Part shown: in pieces, positions 12,973-17,605 of the stretch
How positions within the stretch are numbered: position 1 is the first letter of the stretch
Layout of the letters: every line of letters starts with the position of its first letter
NCBI RefSeq assembly: GCF_020171525.1
Contig: NZ_JAIVAI010000003.1
Span: 186,001-250,000, forward strand
Length of the DNA: 64,000 nucleotides
Direction: 5' to 3'
Source: Halobacillus yeomjeoni
Lineage (GTDB): Bacteria; Bacillota; Bacilli; Bacillales; Halobacillaceae
Made by a program: the position numbers and the translations under genes
The notes under the pieces: model-generated
What the model was told of the DNA's origin: nothing
Database searches by the model: none
What the model saw: only the letters and a program-made list of their open reading frames with translations

Positions 12973-14475
12973 TTATCGAAGAAGTTGTAGAACTCCTTGT
13001 GGGTTTTGGTTGGCTTTGGCAAGCATGGCTTGTGATGCTTGGGCTAGTATAGATTGCTTCGTTTGGTTCATCATTTCTTTAGCCATGTCGACGTCACGGA
13101 TACGAGATTCAGCAGCAGTAAGGTTTTCAGAAGAAGTACCTAGGTTATTGATTGTATGATCAAGTCGATTTTGGTAAGCCCCTAACTTAGAGCGTTCTGC
13201 TGAAACATTCTCAATAGCATTATTTATAGAGGTTATAGCTGAATTAGCAGAAGATTGAGTATTAACTGCTATCCCCGCTTGGGCTACTGCGTTAACTGAT
13301 ACATTACCGTTAGCATCTGTAGTAGCTGCTGAAGAAGTATTAGCTGTTAAATTAAATGTAGCTGATTGTGCATCTGTCAAACTTCCAAAAGCGAAGTTAG
13401 ACTTAAGAGTTTCTCCAGTTGCCAGATTACCTACCTGAGCACTTGTATCTCCATTATATACTCGAGTCGCTGAACCAATATCTGTACTACCTGAATCCTG
13501 CAATTGTAAGTCAGCATATGCAGCTGTTACAGCAAAAGTATACGTATCATTCACAACATAGTCGCCTGCTGCTGTTCCATCATTAATTGTAAGAGATAAT
13601 CCATCTCCTAGGTTAAAGCTAGTATCCGTCGCGCCTTTTACACCAGAAACAGAGTTCCAGTTTGAACCTCCATCAGTAGAATATTCAATAGTTGAAACAT
13701 TATTCCCTGATTCAGCAGTTACTTTCACTTGGAAAGTTTTATCTGTGGTTCCAGTATAGTTTGTAGCAGGATTTATTGCTACATCTGAACTAGCAACATT
13801 CTTCGTTCCTGTTACAGACTGATCTTGGAGAGCAGTACTATAGGCTGCATCAGTTTTGGAAACGTCAATATTATATCCAGTGCCTGTTGCAAAGCCTCTA
13901 CCAAGTTCTGTTATCCCCGAAATACCAGAGGTTCCTCCACTAAAACTATCTGCATTCACAGTTTGCCCAGCTACACCAAGAGAATAAGCATCCATTGACC
14001 CAATTTGCATTTGAATATTTTGATCAGCATTAGCTCCTATATGGAATTTAGAATTATGTCCACCTGCTAATAAATTCTTTGTGTTAAATTCAGTAGTATT
14101 AGAAATTCTTGTAATCTCTTGAGCTAACTGATCAACTTCTTTTTGAATTTCATTTCTATCAGTTGCAGTAGCAGTGTCATTGGATGACTGAACAGCTAAT
14201 TCCCGCATACGTTGCAAAATACTGTGTGTTTCATTAAGTGCACCTTCAGCAGTTTGAATCAAAGAAATTGAATCTTGAGAGTTTCGTTGTGCTTGGTCTA
14301 ACCCACGAATTTGCCCACGCATTTTTTCTGATATTGCTAGACCAGCAGCGTCATCTCCAGCCTTATTAATTCTTAGACCAGAAGATAGCTTTTCCATTGA
14401 ATTTCCCATTGCATTGTTTGCCTGTCCCAATTGACGATACGTATTCAACGCTGCAATGTTGTGATTAATTCTCAT
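12973..14475 (-). CDS. hag: Flagellin (paralog 1)
   Basis: A 500-residue flagellin. The N-terminal D0/D1 (MRINHNIAALNTYRQLGQAN... LSSGLRINKAGDDAAGLAIS) and C-terminal D1/D0 (RIRDVDMAKEMMNQTKQSILAQASQAMLAKANQNPQGVLQLLR) are nearly identical to paralog 2. The central 150-400 region is different, Thr/Ser/Asn/Gly-rich, and contains a beta-type insert (TDKTFQVKVTAESGNN). It is longer than Bacillus subtilis Hag (304), so surface-exposed D2/D3-like domains are inferred. Its leader has two CsrA-type sites. It lies downstream of the small csrA paralog and its terminator. I find no convincing SigD promoter directly upstream. Confidence 0.95.
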   Translation of the reverse strand: MRINHNIAALNTYRQLGQANNAMGNSMEKLSSGLRINKAGDDAAGLAISEKMRGQIRGLDQAQRNSQDSISLIQTAEGALNETHSILQRMRELAVQSSNDTATATDRNEIQKEVDQLAQEITRISNTTEFNTKNLLAGGHNSKFHIGANADQNIQMQIGSMDAYSLGVAGQTVNADSFSGGTSGISGITELGRGFATGTGYNIDVSKTDAAYSTALQDQSVTGTKNVASSDVAINPATNYTGTTDKTFQVKVTAESGNNVSTIEYSTDGGSNWNSVSGVKGATDTSFNLGDGLSLTINDGTAAGDYVVNDTYTFAVTAAYADLQLQDSGSTDIGSATRVYNGDTSAQVGNLATGETLKSNFAFGSLTDAQSATFNLTANTSSAATTDANGNVSVNAVAQAGIAVNTQSSANSAITSINNAIENVSAERSKLGAYQNRLDHTINNLGTSSENLTAAESRIRDVDMAKEMMNQTKQSILAQASQAMLAKANQNPQGVLQLLR

Positions 14476-14481
14476 TATTAT

Positions 14482-14523
14482 TTCCTCCCTGGAATGTTTT
14501 CAGGTGGACATCCTTTTCCACCT
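14482..14523 (-). promoter_or_regulatory. Two CsrA-type sites in the leader of flagellin 1
   Basis: Site 1 (14502-14523): 7-bp stem AGGTGGA/TCCACCT with loop AAAGGATG. Site 2 (14482-14494): TTCC-AGGGA-GGAA, which contains the Shine-Dalgarno sequence. The paired arrangement matches the two CsrA sites in the Bacillus subtilis hag leader. Confidence 0.65.
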
Positions 14524-14580
14524 ATCTATTTGATCCGAGTCGCTAACCGGGCCCTGGATAACAACTCAGAAGCAAATCAT

Positions 14581-14646
14581 AAAAAAAAGACGAGTTTGGT
14601 GAAGAGAAGTGGATACGCATCCATGCCTTCTCTATTCCAAACTCGT
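14581..14646 (-). terminator. Large terminator hairpin between csrA2 and flagellin 1
   Basis: On the minus strand ACGAGTTTGG pairs with CCAAACTCGT. Inner stems AGAGAAG/CTTCTCT and GGAT/ATCC extend it, and eight T follow. It is an unusually long, layered hairpin just after the csrA2 stop. Confidence 0.85.
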
Positions 14647-14665
14647 CCATGAGTTTCATCGAATA

Positions 14666-14827
14666 TTATTTATTTTTCTTTTCATATAATTCACCACGTG
14701 TAATGGAAACTTCTTTTGGGGCATCAATGGCAAGTCGAAGGTGTCCATCTTCACTTTTAACCACCTTCACCATGATGTTATCATCAAGCATCACATATTC
14801 TCCAGGTTTTCTTCCAATAACTAACAT
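14666..14827 (-). CDS. Short CsrA-family RNA-binding protein (second csrA, truncated form)
   Basis: A 53-residue CsrA homologue lying between two flagellin genes. It starts MLVIGRKPGEYVMLDDNIMV from ATG 14827 with GGGAGGTA upstream. CsrA landmarks are kept: I4, R6, the AIDAPKEV segment at 33-40 and R44, which in CsrA contacts the GGA of target RNA. It stops shortly after Y48 with EKKNK and so lacks the 23-residue C-terminal helix of the full-length CsrA encoded at 16933-17163, including the N55 position implicated in FliW binding in Bacillus subtilis. Inference: an RNA-binding CsrA that FliW may not inhibit. Its leader is full of CsrA-type hairpins. Confidence 0.85.
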   Translation of the reverse strand: MLVIGRKPGEYVMLDDNIMVKVVKSEDGHLRLAIDAPKEVSITRGELYEKKNK

Positions 14828-14861
14828 AAAACACTACCTCCCTGATGTTTTAAAGCTTAGT

Positions 14862-14927
14862 AATGAAAAGGATGAGTAAATAAACCTATCAGCTCATTTC
14901 GAGACTACAGGTCTATTACTCATCCTT
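14862..14927 (-). promoter_or_regulatory. Terminator-like attenuator hairpin in the csrA2 leader
   Basis: On the minus strand AAGGATGAGTAA (14916-14927) pairs perfectly with TTACTCATCCTT (14868-14879), with GACCT/AGGTT extending it, and is followed by CTTTTCATT. The 5' arm shares the bases of CsrA-type hairpin ACTC-AAGGAT-GAGT (14918-14931), so the two structures are mutually exclusive. This suggests CsrA-dependent attenuation upstream of csrA2. Confidence 0.5.
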
Positions 14928-14964
14928 GAGTGTTTCGTATTTTTCTAACTCATCCATGAGCTAG
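14918..14964 (-). promoter_or_regulatory. Two CsrA-type GGA hairpins in the csrA2 leader
   Basis: Hairpin at 14945-14964: stem CTAGCTC/GAGTTAG (7 bp, one G-U) with loop ATGGAT. Hairpin at 14918-14931: stem ACTC/GAGT with loop AAGGAT. GGA in a hexaloop, with AAGGAUG close to the CsrA SELEX core ACARGGAUG. Confidence 0.55.
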
Positions 14965-15018
14965 ACTGTTTTAATGTAATAAAATACATTATTGTAAAAT
15001 TTTTCTTTCTCATTCATT

Positions 15019-15045
15019 ATATCGGTTGTTTCTATCATTTGTTAA
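15019..15045 (-). promoter_or_regulatory. SigD-type promoter P2, upstream of csrA2
   Basis: TTAA (15042-15045), 15-bp spacer, ACCGATAT (15019-15026), close to TAAA-N15-GCCGATAT. The -10 runs into TATAAT, so SigA use is also possible. Confidence 0.55.
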
Positions 15046-15071
15046 CTATTTGACTCATCTTTTTTTAAAAT

Positions 15072-15169
15072 TAAAAAAGGATGAGGAAAAAAACGTTGGA
15101 ATTACTAACGTTCACCTTTCACTCATCCTTGAAACATATAATTCTACTCTTCCTTGAGTATATCACCTT
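15072..15169 (-). ncRNA. Putative short RNA with CsrA-type hairpins between flagellin 2 and csrA2
   Basis: Predicted transcript of about 100 nt from SigD-like promoter P1 to an intrinsic terminator. It carries hairpin TACTC-AAGGAA-GAGTA (15145-15160) and TTTCA-AGGATGAG-TGAAA (15117-15134), both with GGA in the loop. The terminator stem is AAGGATGAG (15122-15130) against CTCATCCTT (15077-15085), followed by six T. The second GGA hairpin and the terminator share the same AAGGATGAG, so CsrA binding and termination compete. No convincing coding frame was seen. The ends are inferred. Confidence 0.42.
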
Positions 15170-15176
15170 ATATACA

Positions 15177-15203
15177 TTATCGGTTGAAAAGTAAATAGAT
15201 TAA
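15177..15203 (-). promoter_or_regulatory. SigD-type promoter P1 downstream of flagellin 2
   Basis: TTAA (15200-15203), 15-bp spacer, ACCGATAA (15177-15184). Same layout as P2; the last base of the -10 departs from consensus. It lies directly after the flagellin 2 terminator. Confidence 0.45.
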
Positions 15204-15204
15204 A

Positions 15205-15232
15205 TAAAAAAGACCTATCAAATGATAGGTCT
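15205..15232 (-). terminator. Intrinsic terminator of flagellin 2
   Basis: Perfect stem AGACCTATCA/TGATAGGTCT followed by six T on the minus strand, nine bases past the stop. Confidence 0.9.
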
Positions 15233-15241
15233 CTAAAATAA

Positions 15242-16798
15242 TTATCGAAGAAGTTGTAGAACTCCTTGTGGGTTTTGGTTGGCTTTAGCAAGCATAGCTT
15301 GGGAAGCTTGAGCAAGAATACTTTCTTTCGTCTGGTTCATCATTTCCTTCGCCATATCAACGTCACGGATACGAGATTCAGAAGCTGTTAAGTTCTCAGC
15401 AGATGTACCTAAATTATTGATTGTGTGATCCAAACGGTTTTGGTAAGCACCTAGTTTAGAACGTTCGGAAGACACTTCTTGTATTGCGTCATCAATTAAG
15501 GTAATCGCCTTTTCGGCATTTGTAGTAGTAGATACCCCTGATCCTTTTAAAGCTGAGATACTTGAGAATGTAGAGGAAACATCACTATTTAAACCAATCT
15601 TATTCGCATTCATTGAATTGATATTGACTGCCATGCTTTGACTTTGGTTTGCACCAATTTGCATCATGACTCCACCTTGACCAACTTCAACAGTCGCTTT
15701 ACCATCTCCTGTTGCTGTAAGAGCGCCTTGCTCTAGTTGAATCTCAAGGTTGTTTAAACCTAGGTTTGCATCAGCAGTTGTTAAACTAACCGTGTCACCT
15801 GAAACAGTAATGTTTGCACTGTCTGTATTTGAAACAGAATCTTGTAGAGTAACCACAGCATCTACTGAAGCTGTGCCTGCACCTGTACCTCCAGTTCCAA
15901 AGCCAAACGTCGCGCCATTATCAAAGTTATTTTCTGTAGCAGTAATATCATAGTCTGAACCAGCTTTAGTTGAAGTTAGAACTAACCCATTATCTGCATT
16001 AGTTGCACTAAACGAAGCCGTTACTGACATTCCTTGATCTTCAAAAGATTGATTCAGCCTTTGAACAACTTGGTTGAATGTATCCGTACCGGCTACATCC
16101 ACACTAATACTCTTTCCATTTTGAGAGATGGTAAGTGATTCATCTCCACCAAATGCTGTATTTCCTCCAGCGTCAAAAGTACCTGCTAATGTATCAGTTC
16201 CATTCACACCTGTAAAATCAACAGCTACTGCATTAGCATTTGTACCACCTACAGATGTTTGCACTTGTGCTACAGCTGCAGTGTCTACGTTCACACTTAA
16301 TGTTCCTTCATATGTGTTTGCACCTGTTAACCTAGTTGAAATAACATTATTATCACCAGTTTTGACTTGTACACCAGAAGCTTCACCATTTAAAAGGTTC
16401 TTCGTGTTAAATTCAGTCGTATTTGCAATACGATCTATTTCGTCAATCAGTTGATTAACTTCTTTTTGAATTTCAGCTCGATCATCTGAAGTGTTTGTTT
16501 CGTTCGCAGATTGTACAGATAGCTCTCTCATACGCTGAAGGATAGAATGAGTTTCATTCAAAGCACCTTCAGCAGTTTGAATCATTGAAATTCCATCCTG
16601 AGCGTTACGACCCGCTTGTTCAAGACCACGAATCTGACCTCTCATTTTCTCAGAGATTGCAAGACCAGCTGCGTCATCTCCTGCACGGTTGATACGAAGG
16701 CCGGAGGAAAGTTTCTCCATGGAGCTTTCCATACCTTTGTTCGCTTGACCCAATTGACGATACGTGTTCAACGCTGCGATATTGTGGTTAATACGCAT
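15242..16798 (-). CDS. hag: Flagellin (paralog 2)
   Basis: A 518-residue flagellin with the same D0/D1 ends as paralog 1 (MRINHNIAALNTYRQLGQAN and NPQGVLQLLR) but a different central region (about 150-410) rich in Gly, Thr, Ala and Asp. It directly follows csrA, the position of hag in Bacillus subtilis, so it is the positional ortholog. It has its own SigD promoter overlapping the csrA stop codon and a leader with two CsrA-type hairpins, one covering the ribosome binding site. FliW and FliS are expected to regulate and chaperone it. Confidence 0.96.
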   Translation of the reverse strand: MRINHNIAALNTYRQLGQANKGMESSMEKLSSGLRINRAGDDAAGLAISEKMRGQIRGLEQAGRNAQDGISMIQTAEGALNETHSILQRMRELSVQSANETNTSDDRAEIQKEVNQLIDEIDRIANTTEFNTKNLLNGEASGVQVKTGDNNVISTRLTGANTYEGTLSVNVDTAAVAQVQTSVGGTNANAVAVDFTGVNGTDTLAGTFDAGGNTAFGGDESLTISQNGKSISVDVAGTDTFNQVVQRLNQSFEDQGMSVTASFSATNADNGLVLTSTKAGSDYDITATENNFDNGATFGFGTGGTGAGTASVDAVVTLQDSVSNTDSANITVSGDTVSLTTADANLGLNNLEIQLEQGALTATGDGKATVEVGQGGVMMQIGANQSQSMAVNINSMNANKIGLNSDVSSTFSSISALKGSGVSTTTNAEKAITLIDDAIQEVSSERSKLGAYQNRLDHTINNLGTSAENLTASESRIRDVDMAKEMMNQTKESILAQASQAMLAKANQNPQGVLQLLR

Positions 16799-16803
16799 GA
16801 TTA

Positions 16804-16843
16804 AATCATCCTCCTTGATTTTTGAACCCCACGTCCTTGTGGG
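16804..16843 (-). promoter_or_regulatory. Two CsrA-type sites in the leader of flagellin 2
   Basis: Site 1 (16828-16843): stem CCCAC/GTGGG with loop AAGGAC. Site 2 (16804-16820): stem AATCA/TGATT with loop AGGAGGA, which is the Shine-Dalgarno sequence. CsrA binding to both would block translation, as for Bacillus subtilis hag. Confidence 0.72.
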
Positions 16844-16866
16844 ATTGTAAAAAGTTTGACCAAGTA

Positions 16867-16884
16867 AAAAGTCGGCCGACTTTT
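16867..16884. repeat. Perfect palindrome in the flagellin 2 leader
   Basis: AAAAGTCGGCCGACTTTT, an 18-bp perfect palindrome between the SigD promoter and the CsrA sites. In RNA it would form a hairpin ending in U's; as DNA it could be an operator. Confidence 0.6.
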
Positions 16885-16908
16885 GAAATGCTTGGCTTTA
16901 CATTTCTT

Positions 16909-16935
16909 ATATCGGACGACTTCTGGTTTCATTTA
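16909..16935 (-). promoter_or_regulatory. SigD promoter of flagellin 2
   Basis: TAAA (16932-16935), exactly 15-bp spacer, TCCGATAT (16909-16916), one mismatch to TAAA-N15-GCCGATAT. The -35 overlaps the csrA stop codon. Confidence 0.85.
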
Positions 16936-17163
16936 ATCTTTTGGACTATTATTTTTTAATAAATTCATTAAATCATTATTAAGTGAAGCAGCTTCTTTGT
17001 TCTCCTCCTGAATCGCAAAGTAGATTTCCTGACGATGAATTTCCATATCAGAAGGGGCATCGATTCCGATCCTTACCTGATTGCCTTCAACAGAGATCAC
17101 TTTAATTTCAATATCATCACCGATTCTGATTGATTCATCTTTTTTTCTATTTAGAATGAGCAT
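16933..17163 (-). CDS. csrA: Carbon storage regulator CsrA (full length)
   Basis: A 76-residue RNA-binding dimer that represses flagellin translation by covering GGA sites at the hag ribosome site. It starts [20 protein letters not shown] and keeps R44, the IDAP turn, and the C-terminal helix with N55 ([11 protein letters not shown]) that FliW contacts in Bacillus. ATG 17163 is chosen over a GTG three codons upstream because AGGTGA is five bases before it. It overlaps the end of fliW by 17 bases, implying translational coupling of CsrA and its antagonist. A second, shorter paralog is at 14666-14827. Confidence 0.95.
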
Positions 17164-17605
17164 GGGATTCACCTGCTTCTTCTTTAGATGTGATGGAGTG
17201 CTTCGTATGATAATCAGATTGATTCAAGATTAGCTGCTTCGCATCTCTGTTTTGTTGGTTGATGATGATTGGAGCTTGCAAGTTAATTGTGGATTGATTA
17301 AAAGGGTCTTTCAACGTCATTACAGAATATAATTCCACGTCTTCCGCCAGTTTCAAGTCCAGTTCTTTTTTAGACTGTTCGTCAATATCAAAAGCGTAAT
17401 CGTGGAAGAATACATATGGATTGACGAGGATAAAAGCAAGTCCCTCTTCTTTCGTCGATTGTAAAACTTTATAAATAGGAGCTTCCTCAAGTGGAAGGAG
17501 CACAAATTCCTTGTAATCCTTGAACCCCGGCAACCCCTGTTTGAATTGAATGACTTGCTCTTCGTTTATTTCAATCGCACCAAAATATTTCGTTTCGATT
17601 TTCAT
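17147..17605 (-). CDS. fliW: Flagellar assembly factor FliW
   Basis: A 152-residue protein starting [28 protein letters not shown], the FliW signature. It binds flagellin and, when released by flagellin export, binds CsrA and removes it from the hag mRNA. It lies between yviE and csrA and overlaps csrA, the conserved arrangement. Segment [14 protein letters not shown] is also typical. The C-terminal tail [11 protein letters not shown] is polar and somewhat extended. The start has AAGGAAGG upstream. Confidence 0.95.

Follow-up and report, generated by a model that had tools for sequence, protein, structure and literature searches.

CsrA is among the best-studied bacterial RNA-binding proteins. 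In the passages of four articles drawn on here (PMC7652899, PMC7430163, PMC4347634, and PMC6582626), its known effects concern translation, RNA stability, a riboswitch, and Rho-dependent termination, and antitermination at intrinsic terminators is not named among them. In Bacillus subtilis, CsrA acts at GGA sites of the flagellin gene hag and represses translation at the Shine-Dalgarno sequence (PMC7652899). In the case of Escherichia coli pgaA, CsrA remodels the leader and alters transcript elongation, promoting Rho-dependent termination (PMC7652899, PMC6582626). CsrB and CsrC present GGA in hairpin loops, CAGGAYG-like sites included (PMC7652899). LicT, SacT, and GlcT of the BglG family act at RAT sites, where the protein stabilises a leader hairpin overlapping an intrinsic terminator (PMC7430163, PMC4347634).

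The locus described here lies in the window, the 64,000-nt stretch of Halobacillus yeomjeoni DNA that was analysed as a whole, and resembles each of these systems in part. As with LicT, SacT, and GlcT, a leader hairpin overlaps an intrinsic terminator, but the proposed protein, the CsrA paralog CsrA2, has a CsrA fold and no PRD domains, the RNA site is a GGA loop, no sugar signal is known, and the protein would control its own gene as well as flagellin. The locus has in common with hag a CsrA-family protein, GGA sites, and a flagellin target; however, activation by a paralog via antitermination is predicted in place of translational repression. Compared with pgaA, intrinsic termination would be prevented, rather than Rho-dependent termination promoted. 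Unlike CsrB and CsrC, there is no stand-alone multi-site RNA, and the sites are tied to terminators 5' of genes. Among the papers listed in searches of the open-access PMC literature (subscription papers and preprints lie outside it), and in the passages of the four articles above and of PMC6529632, neither CsrA-family antitermination at intrinsic terminators nor a csrA2-type paralog was found.

The locus likely represents a protein-dependent transcription antitermination module, in which the dedicated short paralog CsrA2 would serve as the antiterminator. SigD would initiate transcription 5' of csrA2, and the first structure to fold in the nascent RNA would be a short hairpin whose loop, ANGGAN, is that of a CsrA-type site. 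A CsrA2 dimer would hold this hairpin together with, where present, a further GGA hairpin at a distance of about 31 nt. With GGAYGAGT thus unavailable for pairing into the terminator, the polymerase would continue into csrA2, forming a positive autoregulation; a further copy of the switch would allow read-through into the downstream flagellin gene, itself showing no SigD-like promoter. Without CsrA2, the far more stable terminator would form. We infer that CsrA2, rather than canonical CsrA, is the ligand, and likewise its binding, the read-through, the bridging by dimers, and any bistability. In broader terms, we lean towards an undescribed CsrA branch acting as a dedicated antiterminator in several families of Bacilli, whose dimers would clamp GGA hairpins about 31 nt apart in a self-amplifying, possibly bistable switch of a second flagellin. 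If true, the pairing of a 53-residue protein with an RNA of some 80 nt, under positive feedback, would be added to the CsrA-family mechanisms and could explain flagellin choice in some Bacilli, and the two-part system is simple enough for heterologous testing.

The gene order on the minus strand is flgN-flgK-flgL-yviE-fliW-csrA-flagA-[P1, switch 1]-[P2, switch 2]-csrA2-[switch 3]-flagB-flaG-fliD-fliS (Table 1). CsrA and FliW were named from Pfam matches, and the remaining genes carry labels of our own. The original prediction had described four GGA hairpins, two SigD-like promoters, two terminator-like hairpins, bases shared between hairpin and terminator at two places, and a 53-codon csrA paralog; all of these are present on the minus strand, the paralog as an open reading frame with a Pfam CsrA match. 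The third switch, just outside the interval it considered, had escaped it. A hairpin with AGGGCCC in its loop lies between terminator 3 and the flagB leader (14539-14565, minus strand) and was seen again by eye in G018, G016, G175, and G249.

Table 1. Features of the csrA2 locus, in positions of the window; the last three rows refer to loci of relatives.
Feature	Position	Strand	Basis and remarks
P1, SigD-like promoter TTAA ... CCGATAA	15175-15205	-	sequence; -10 box within 15175-15186
Site 1a, GGA hairpin TACTC-AAGGAA-GAGTA	15145-15160	-	sequence, folding
Site 1b, weak GGA hairpin; GGATGAG doubles as 5' arm of terminator 1	15117-15134	-	sequence
Terminator 1, GGATGAG / CTCATCC and U-tract	15073-15130	-	5' arm within 15122-15130, shared with site 1b; 3' arm and U-tract 15073-15085
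P2, SigD-like promoter GTTAAC ... CCGATAT	15015-15047	-	-10 box within 15015-15027; also top sigma-70-like match
Site 2a, partner GGA hairpin, 30 nt 5' of site 2b	14944-14965	-	folding, sequence
Site 2b, predicted antiterminator hairpin ACTC-AAGGAT-GAGT	14918-14931	-	strict detector, model search, covariation
Terminator 2; GGATGAGT common to site 2b	14866-14927	-	folding, model search, covariation; shared bases 14916-14927
csrA2 ribosome-binding site	14834-14845	-	sequence
csrA2, 53-aa CsrA paralog, proposed antiterminator protein	14666-14827	-	ORF, Pfam, protein comparison
Site 3, predicted antiterminator hairpin AAACTC-ATGGAC-GAGTTT, 5' of flagB	14639-14656	-	strict detector, model search
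Terminator 3; GGACGAGTTT common to site 3	14581-14648	-	detector, model; GGA at apex (14616-14627)
flagB-leader GGA hairpin resembling CsrA site	14502-14523	-	sequence; putative function by analogy with B. subtilis hag (PMC7652899)
flagB ribosome-binding site, GGA within	14481-14492	-	sequence
flagB, downstream flagellin	12973-14475	-	ORF
flagA, upstream flagellin	15242-16798	-	ORF
flagA SigD-like promoter	-10 within 16906-16920	-	sequence
flagA-leader GGA hairpin	16828-16843	-	sequence
flagA ribosome-binding site	16806-16817	-	sequence
Canonical csrA	16933-17172	-	Pfam, NCBIfam
fliW	17147-17605	-	Pfam
Group I introns, L028	5923-6273, 8506-8855	+	Rfam RF00028
Group I introns, L089	2301-2652, 7244-7597	+	Rfam RF00028
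Group I introns, L099	125-534, 2621-2970	-	Rfam RF00028

In each switch unit, a hairpin presents GGA in its loop (typically ACTC-AAGGAY-GAGT), and its GGAYGAGT doubles as the 5' arm of an intrinsic terminator. At site 2b, GGATGAGT forms the 5' arm of a long hairpin that is closed by ACTCATCC and followed by U's. Because the GGA hairpin and the terminator share bases, the two folds are mutually exclusive, and since these bases belong to the 5' arm of the terminator, binding is predicted to prevent termination, not to cause it. Three copies exist in the window, two in the csrA2 leaders and one in the gap between csrA2 and flagB (14581-14656); the third has the top score of the covariance model, whose training set included these copies, with 57.5 bits against 47.7 and 45. 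For either leader, none of 200 dinucleotide shuffles folded as well (z -3.87 and -4.84). A strict detector, defined as a GGA hairpin whose GGA and 3' arm pair with an arm further 3' that precedes a T-run, reported three sites on both strands of the 64-kb window, all at the csrA2 region, against an average of 0.2 in one-strand shuffles. Over loci, it gave 25 matches in 28 loci, three of them double-counted in overlapping loci, compared with 2 matches when 140 shuffled loci were scanned. The most degenerate of the three copies is switch 1: the GGA-loop hairpin of site 1b is weak and was not reported by the strict detector, and the covariance model aligned site 1a in its place.

CsrA2 matches Pfam CsrA (PF02599) with 71.4 bits over a cut-off of 27, its sole Pfam match at E up to 0.001, and no BglG/LicT-type domain was found in it. 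It stays below the cut-offs of the canonical equivalogs TIGR00202 (55.8 against 70.1) and NF002469 (57.1 against 73), which the adjoining canonical csrA passes with 96.6 and 98.4, respectively. In a tree, the 49 csrA2-type proteins cluster together, apart from 16 canonical CsrA proteins of the same loci (100/100; 50 columns, with weak inner branches); 50 such proteins had been found, and a 44-aa piece after the stop codon of G312 was excluded. By sequence comparison, csrA2 is a conserved CsrA clade of its own, not the truncated csrA that it had been called. A decaying csrA is excluded by this clade and by the constraint on csrA2 (7 genes, 21 pairs), with dN of 0.044-0.261 and dS of 0.89-3.16 in the 9 computable pairs, the other 12 having no value.

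The RNA-contact residues of CsrA include L4 and R44 (PMC7652899). R44 is present in 49 of the 49 csrA2-type proteins, and G5 and G45 in 46 each; position 4 is L in 27 of the 49 and otherwise V, I, or M, with I4 in the protein of the window. The PDB relatives of CsrA2 by sequence are CsrA/RsmE chains (9 sequences). The median length is 56 aa (49-82) against 76 (74-79) in canonical CsrA. The protein of the window, with 53 aa, lacks the C-terminal tail beyond approximately residue 50, and a few csrA2-type proteins possess longer, unlike tails. The missing tail is what we take to be the FliW-responsive part of B. subtilis-type CsrA; the passages of PMC6529632 drawn on here name neither this tail as the FliW target nor residues that bind FliW.

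Genes of the csrA2 type were found in 3 of the 22 genomes of the genus (E below 1e-24) and in the same 3 of the 44 genomes of the family (E up to 1e-9), where one further match, in G027, is a canonical csrA located behind fliW. In a sample of the order, they occur in 24 of 397 genomes and 15 of 135 genera. All but one of these 24 loci have csrA2 just 5' of a co-oriented flagellin gene, the exception being G060, where csrA2 is inverted. Local model searches gave sense copies of the switch at 23 of these 24 loci, G060 again being the exception. The covariance model was built from 33 copies (alignment A1); of the original 46 detector matches, 12 had been discarded as spurious or as partner sites, and another was not carried forward. 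Searched over the 397 whole genomes, it gave matches in 33 at E up to 0.01. A score of at least 35 bits was reached in 21 genomes, of which 20 belong to the 24 csrA2 genomes, although the model was trained on csrA2 loci and the scores there are therefore non-independent. The sole other genome, G205, has a match without a GGA hairpin. Among the csrA2 genomes, G060, G065, G108, and G141 have no match of at least 35 bits, the last three containing copies of 22-36 bits in local searches. The upstream arm, judged by eye, is absent in all 10 genomes inspected of the 13 with matches and without csrA2 (G205 included); the matches in G094, G354, and G422, and a weak second match in G139 away from csrA2, were left uninspected.

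A less circular test of the csrA2 link is provided by the exact DNA pattern ACTCAWGGAYGAGTN{30,60}ACTCRTCNTTT, searched over 84,980 species genomes. It gave 8 matches, with approximately 0.5 expected by chance according to our own arithmetic. All 8 adjoin a csrA2-type gene, and 7 of the 8 stretches also contain a flagellin gene, which was not found within 8 kb in the P. lignilyticus stretch. The species are H. locisalis, H. salinus, Pontibacillus yanchengensis, and Bacillus coahuilensis, already in the training set of the model, and four Paenibacillus, which are new. Among the 197 genomes of the P. lignilyticus family, 9 contain the element (E up to 0.001) and 10 contain csrA2 (E up to 1e-11), with 8 shared; local searches gave copies at all 10 csrA2 genomes and at two more pattern-match genomes (12/12). 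The single genome that has the element without csrA2, G818, contains a look-alike with no flagellar gene near; a further match, in G881, precedes a broken csrA-like stretch, judged by eye to be a csrA relic. In the class-level sample (398 genomes), matches were obtained in three csrA2 genomes already known and, as look-alikes, in G537 and G481; the latter has the same coordinates as the G818 match and could pair into a 4-bp hairpin that includes a G-U pair. In total, alignments A2 and A3 comprise 77 rows, and the removal of 7 antisense palindromic matches (5 and 2) leaves 70 copies in the sense orientation; these lie at 35 of the 36 csrA2 loci and at the one relic. The counts of partners and positions below use 36 loci, the 35 csrA2 loci with copies and the relic locus L169.

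Several further observations were made at these loci. Two csrA2-type genes are present at 14 of the 36 csrA2 loci (L087, L088, L090, L091, L102, L103, and eight Paenibacillus-type loci), in several of which each gene lies behind its own switch. In G312 (L045/L100), csrA2 contains an in-frame TAG, and yet the two switches there are intact. Weak model matches without csrA2 at L075, L077-L080, and L082 have a common GTGTYACTGAYNCGATCAGGCATGAGT-like leader 5' of the terminator, presumably a GlcT/ptsG-type antiterminator. Carriage by phages was considered on account of a single looser-pattern match in viral contigs; this DNA has no match to 13 reference proteins of the window, and the match was judged to be chance.

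The distribution bears on the identity of the ligand. The same switch might be run by canonical CsrA under the control of FliW: as flagellin piles up, FliW would be occupied and free CsrA would antiterminate csrA2-flagB, so that a second flagellin and a FliW-insensitive CsrA would be deployed sequentially. Canonical csrA and fliW are indeed nearby, the loops suit CsrA generally, and the switches that survive beside the stop-bearing csrA2 of G312 and the relic of G881, odd if CsrA2 were the sole ligand, leave room for canonical CsrA. However, CsrA-family genes are nearly general in the order (310 of 328 genomes) and the strong matches track csrA2, which favours CsrA2 as the ligand and also disfavours a general CsrA target of flagellar operons. 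In addition, free CsrA would presumably act on the flagB leader as well and repress translation there. The account by canonical CsrA is accordingly considered unlikely, and antitermination by CsrA2 is retained as the preferred reading.

The switch hairpins are predicted to be CsrA-type binding sites. Their loops are ANGGAN in 59 of the 70 copies and AGGAN in 11, ANGGAN being the loop in RsmE complexes; most selected CsrA hairpins have six-base loops and four or fewer pairs, and CsrB sites read CAGGA(U/A/C)G (PMC7652899). At glgC, a CsrA dimer bridges two sites (PMC7652899). A second GGA hairpin of at least 4 bp exists within the terminator loop in 41 of the 70 copies, against 149 of 3500 shuffled loops, and often lies approximately 31 nt from the first: a spacing of 28-34 nt was found in 36 of 70, against 32 of 3500. 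An upstream partner GGA hairpin was seen in 11 of the 70, two of them poor, in a count made without a shuffle control; 18 copies have a second hairpin in neither place, and none has it in both.

Both folds were compared across relatives, the check named in the original prediction. Since the model carries the terminator only, the antiterminator had no part in shaping the alignment. In A2 (52 rows), 79.8% of the cells of the antiterminator helix are paired, against 26.2-43.2% when slid by 1-3 positions, and 95.0% of those of the terminator helix, against 37.9-51.9%; in A3 (25 rows), the values are 75.4% against 32.6-50.7% and 96.7% against 38.0-53.2%, respectively. These counts used all 77 rows, the antisense rows being set aside as gaps for the antiterminator and counted for the terminator. 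Covariation scores beat all 500 shuffles in four of four cases, which kinship alone can bring about without structure. Shuffles yield about as many antiterminator pairs with two-sided changes as were observed (3 observed against 3.0; 4 against 3.1). Only the count of cells with two-sided changes and the covariation score, both of which relatedness can raise, exceed the shuffles. In G851 and G822 (L141, L146), all three arms are altered in concert. The comparison thus indicates that covariation keeps both of these exclusive folds, with the weaker case for the antiterminator.

The antiterminator stem has at least 4 bp in 64 of the 70 copies and fewer in 6. Holding the hairpin costs a median of 13.3 kcal/mol compared with the full fold. 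In the nascent RNA, 53 of 70 copies have it in their minimum-free-energy fold and 17 do not; once the element is complete, the number falls to 2 of 70. The antiterminator could thus form first and would need help to persist.

SigD promoters follow the consensus TAAA-N15-GCCGATAT. A strict SigD-like motif lies within 150 nt 5' of the first switch at 27 of the 36 loci, against 82 of 3600 random stretches, and in 0 of 24 gaps between switch and flagellin, in a search confined to this promoter type. In the window, no SigD-like promoter was seen between switch 3 and the flagB start. At G249 (L086 6400-6463, minus strand), the first switch closely follows the stop codon of the upstream flagellin, and read-through from flagellin to csrA2 might be controlled there as well. 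Both flagellin leaders of the window contain GGA hairpins and Shine-Dalgarno sites like the CsrA-repression sites of hag (PMC7652899), so flagB may be under two opposing controls.

Such leader sites also suit a post-transcriptional reading, in which CsrA2 or CsrA would alter the translation or decay of the csrA2 and flagB mRNAs, the usual actions of CsrA (PMC7652899), and the terminators would be constitutive and partial. This reading explains neither the overlap of the GGA hairpin with the terminator arm nor their covariation, and appears quite improbable.

The original prediction had offered either a local RNA sponge or a CsrA-sensing attenuator. Exclusive hairpins and terminators, covariation in both, and the close association with csrA2 speak for the attenuator. 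As a sponge, terminated GGA leaders would titrate CsrA in the manner of CsrB/C; the window does contain several successive GGA hairpins, and short leaders would be released at each terminator. However, each unit contains one or two GGA sites set against a terminator, and the main GGA is paired within that terminator in the terminated form. Furthermore, the start of a csrA2-type or flagellin gene lies within 330 nt in 68 of 70 copies (first gene csrA2-type in 44, flagellin in 24, and neither called in 2). Rfam gave no match at the gathering score anywhere in the window, and in the region 14400-17200, all matches at E up to 10 were of eukaryotic or viral origin and regarded as chance. The sponge is therefore held to be very unlikely. 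Ordinary terminators with chance GGA hairpins can hardly be credited, because, although look-alike terminators occur elsewhere (G205, G537, and others), none of the 10 inspected order genomes without csrA2 shows the upstream arm by eye, the csrA2-linked copies keep it with covariation, and the strict detector far exceeds its shuffled loci.

In addition, three relatives have flagellin genes interrupted by group I introns (Rfam RF00028, above the gathering score), six in all and two per relative, located towards the 3' end of the coding region.
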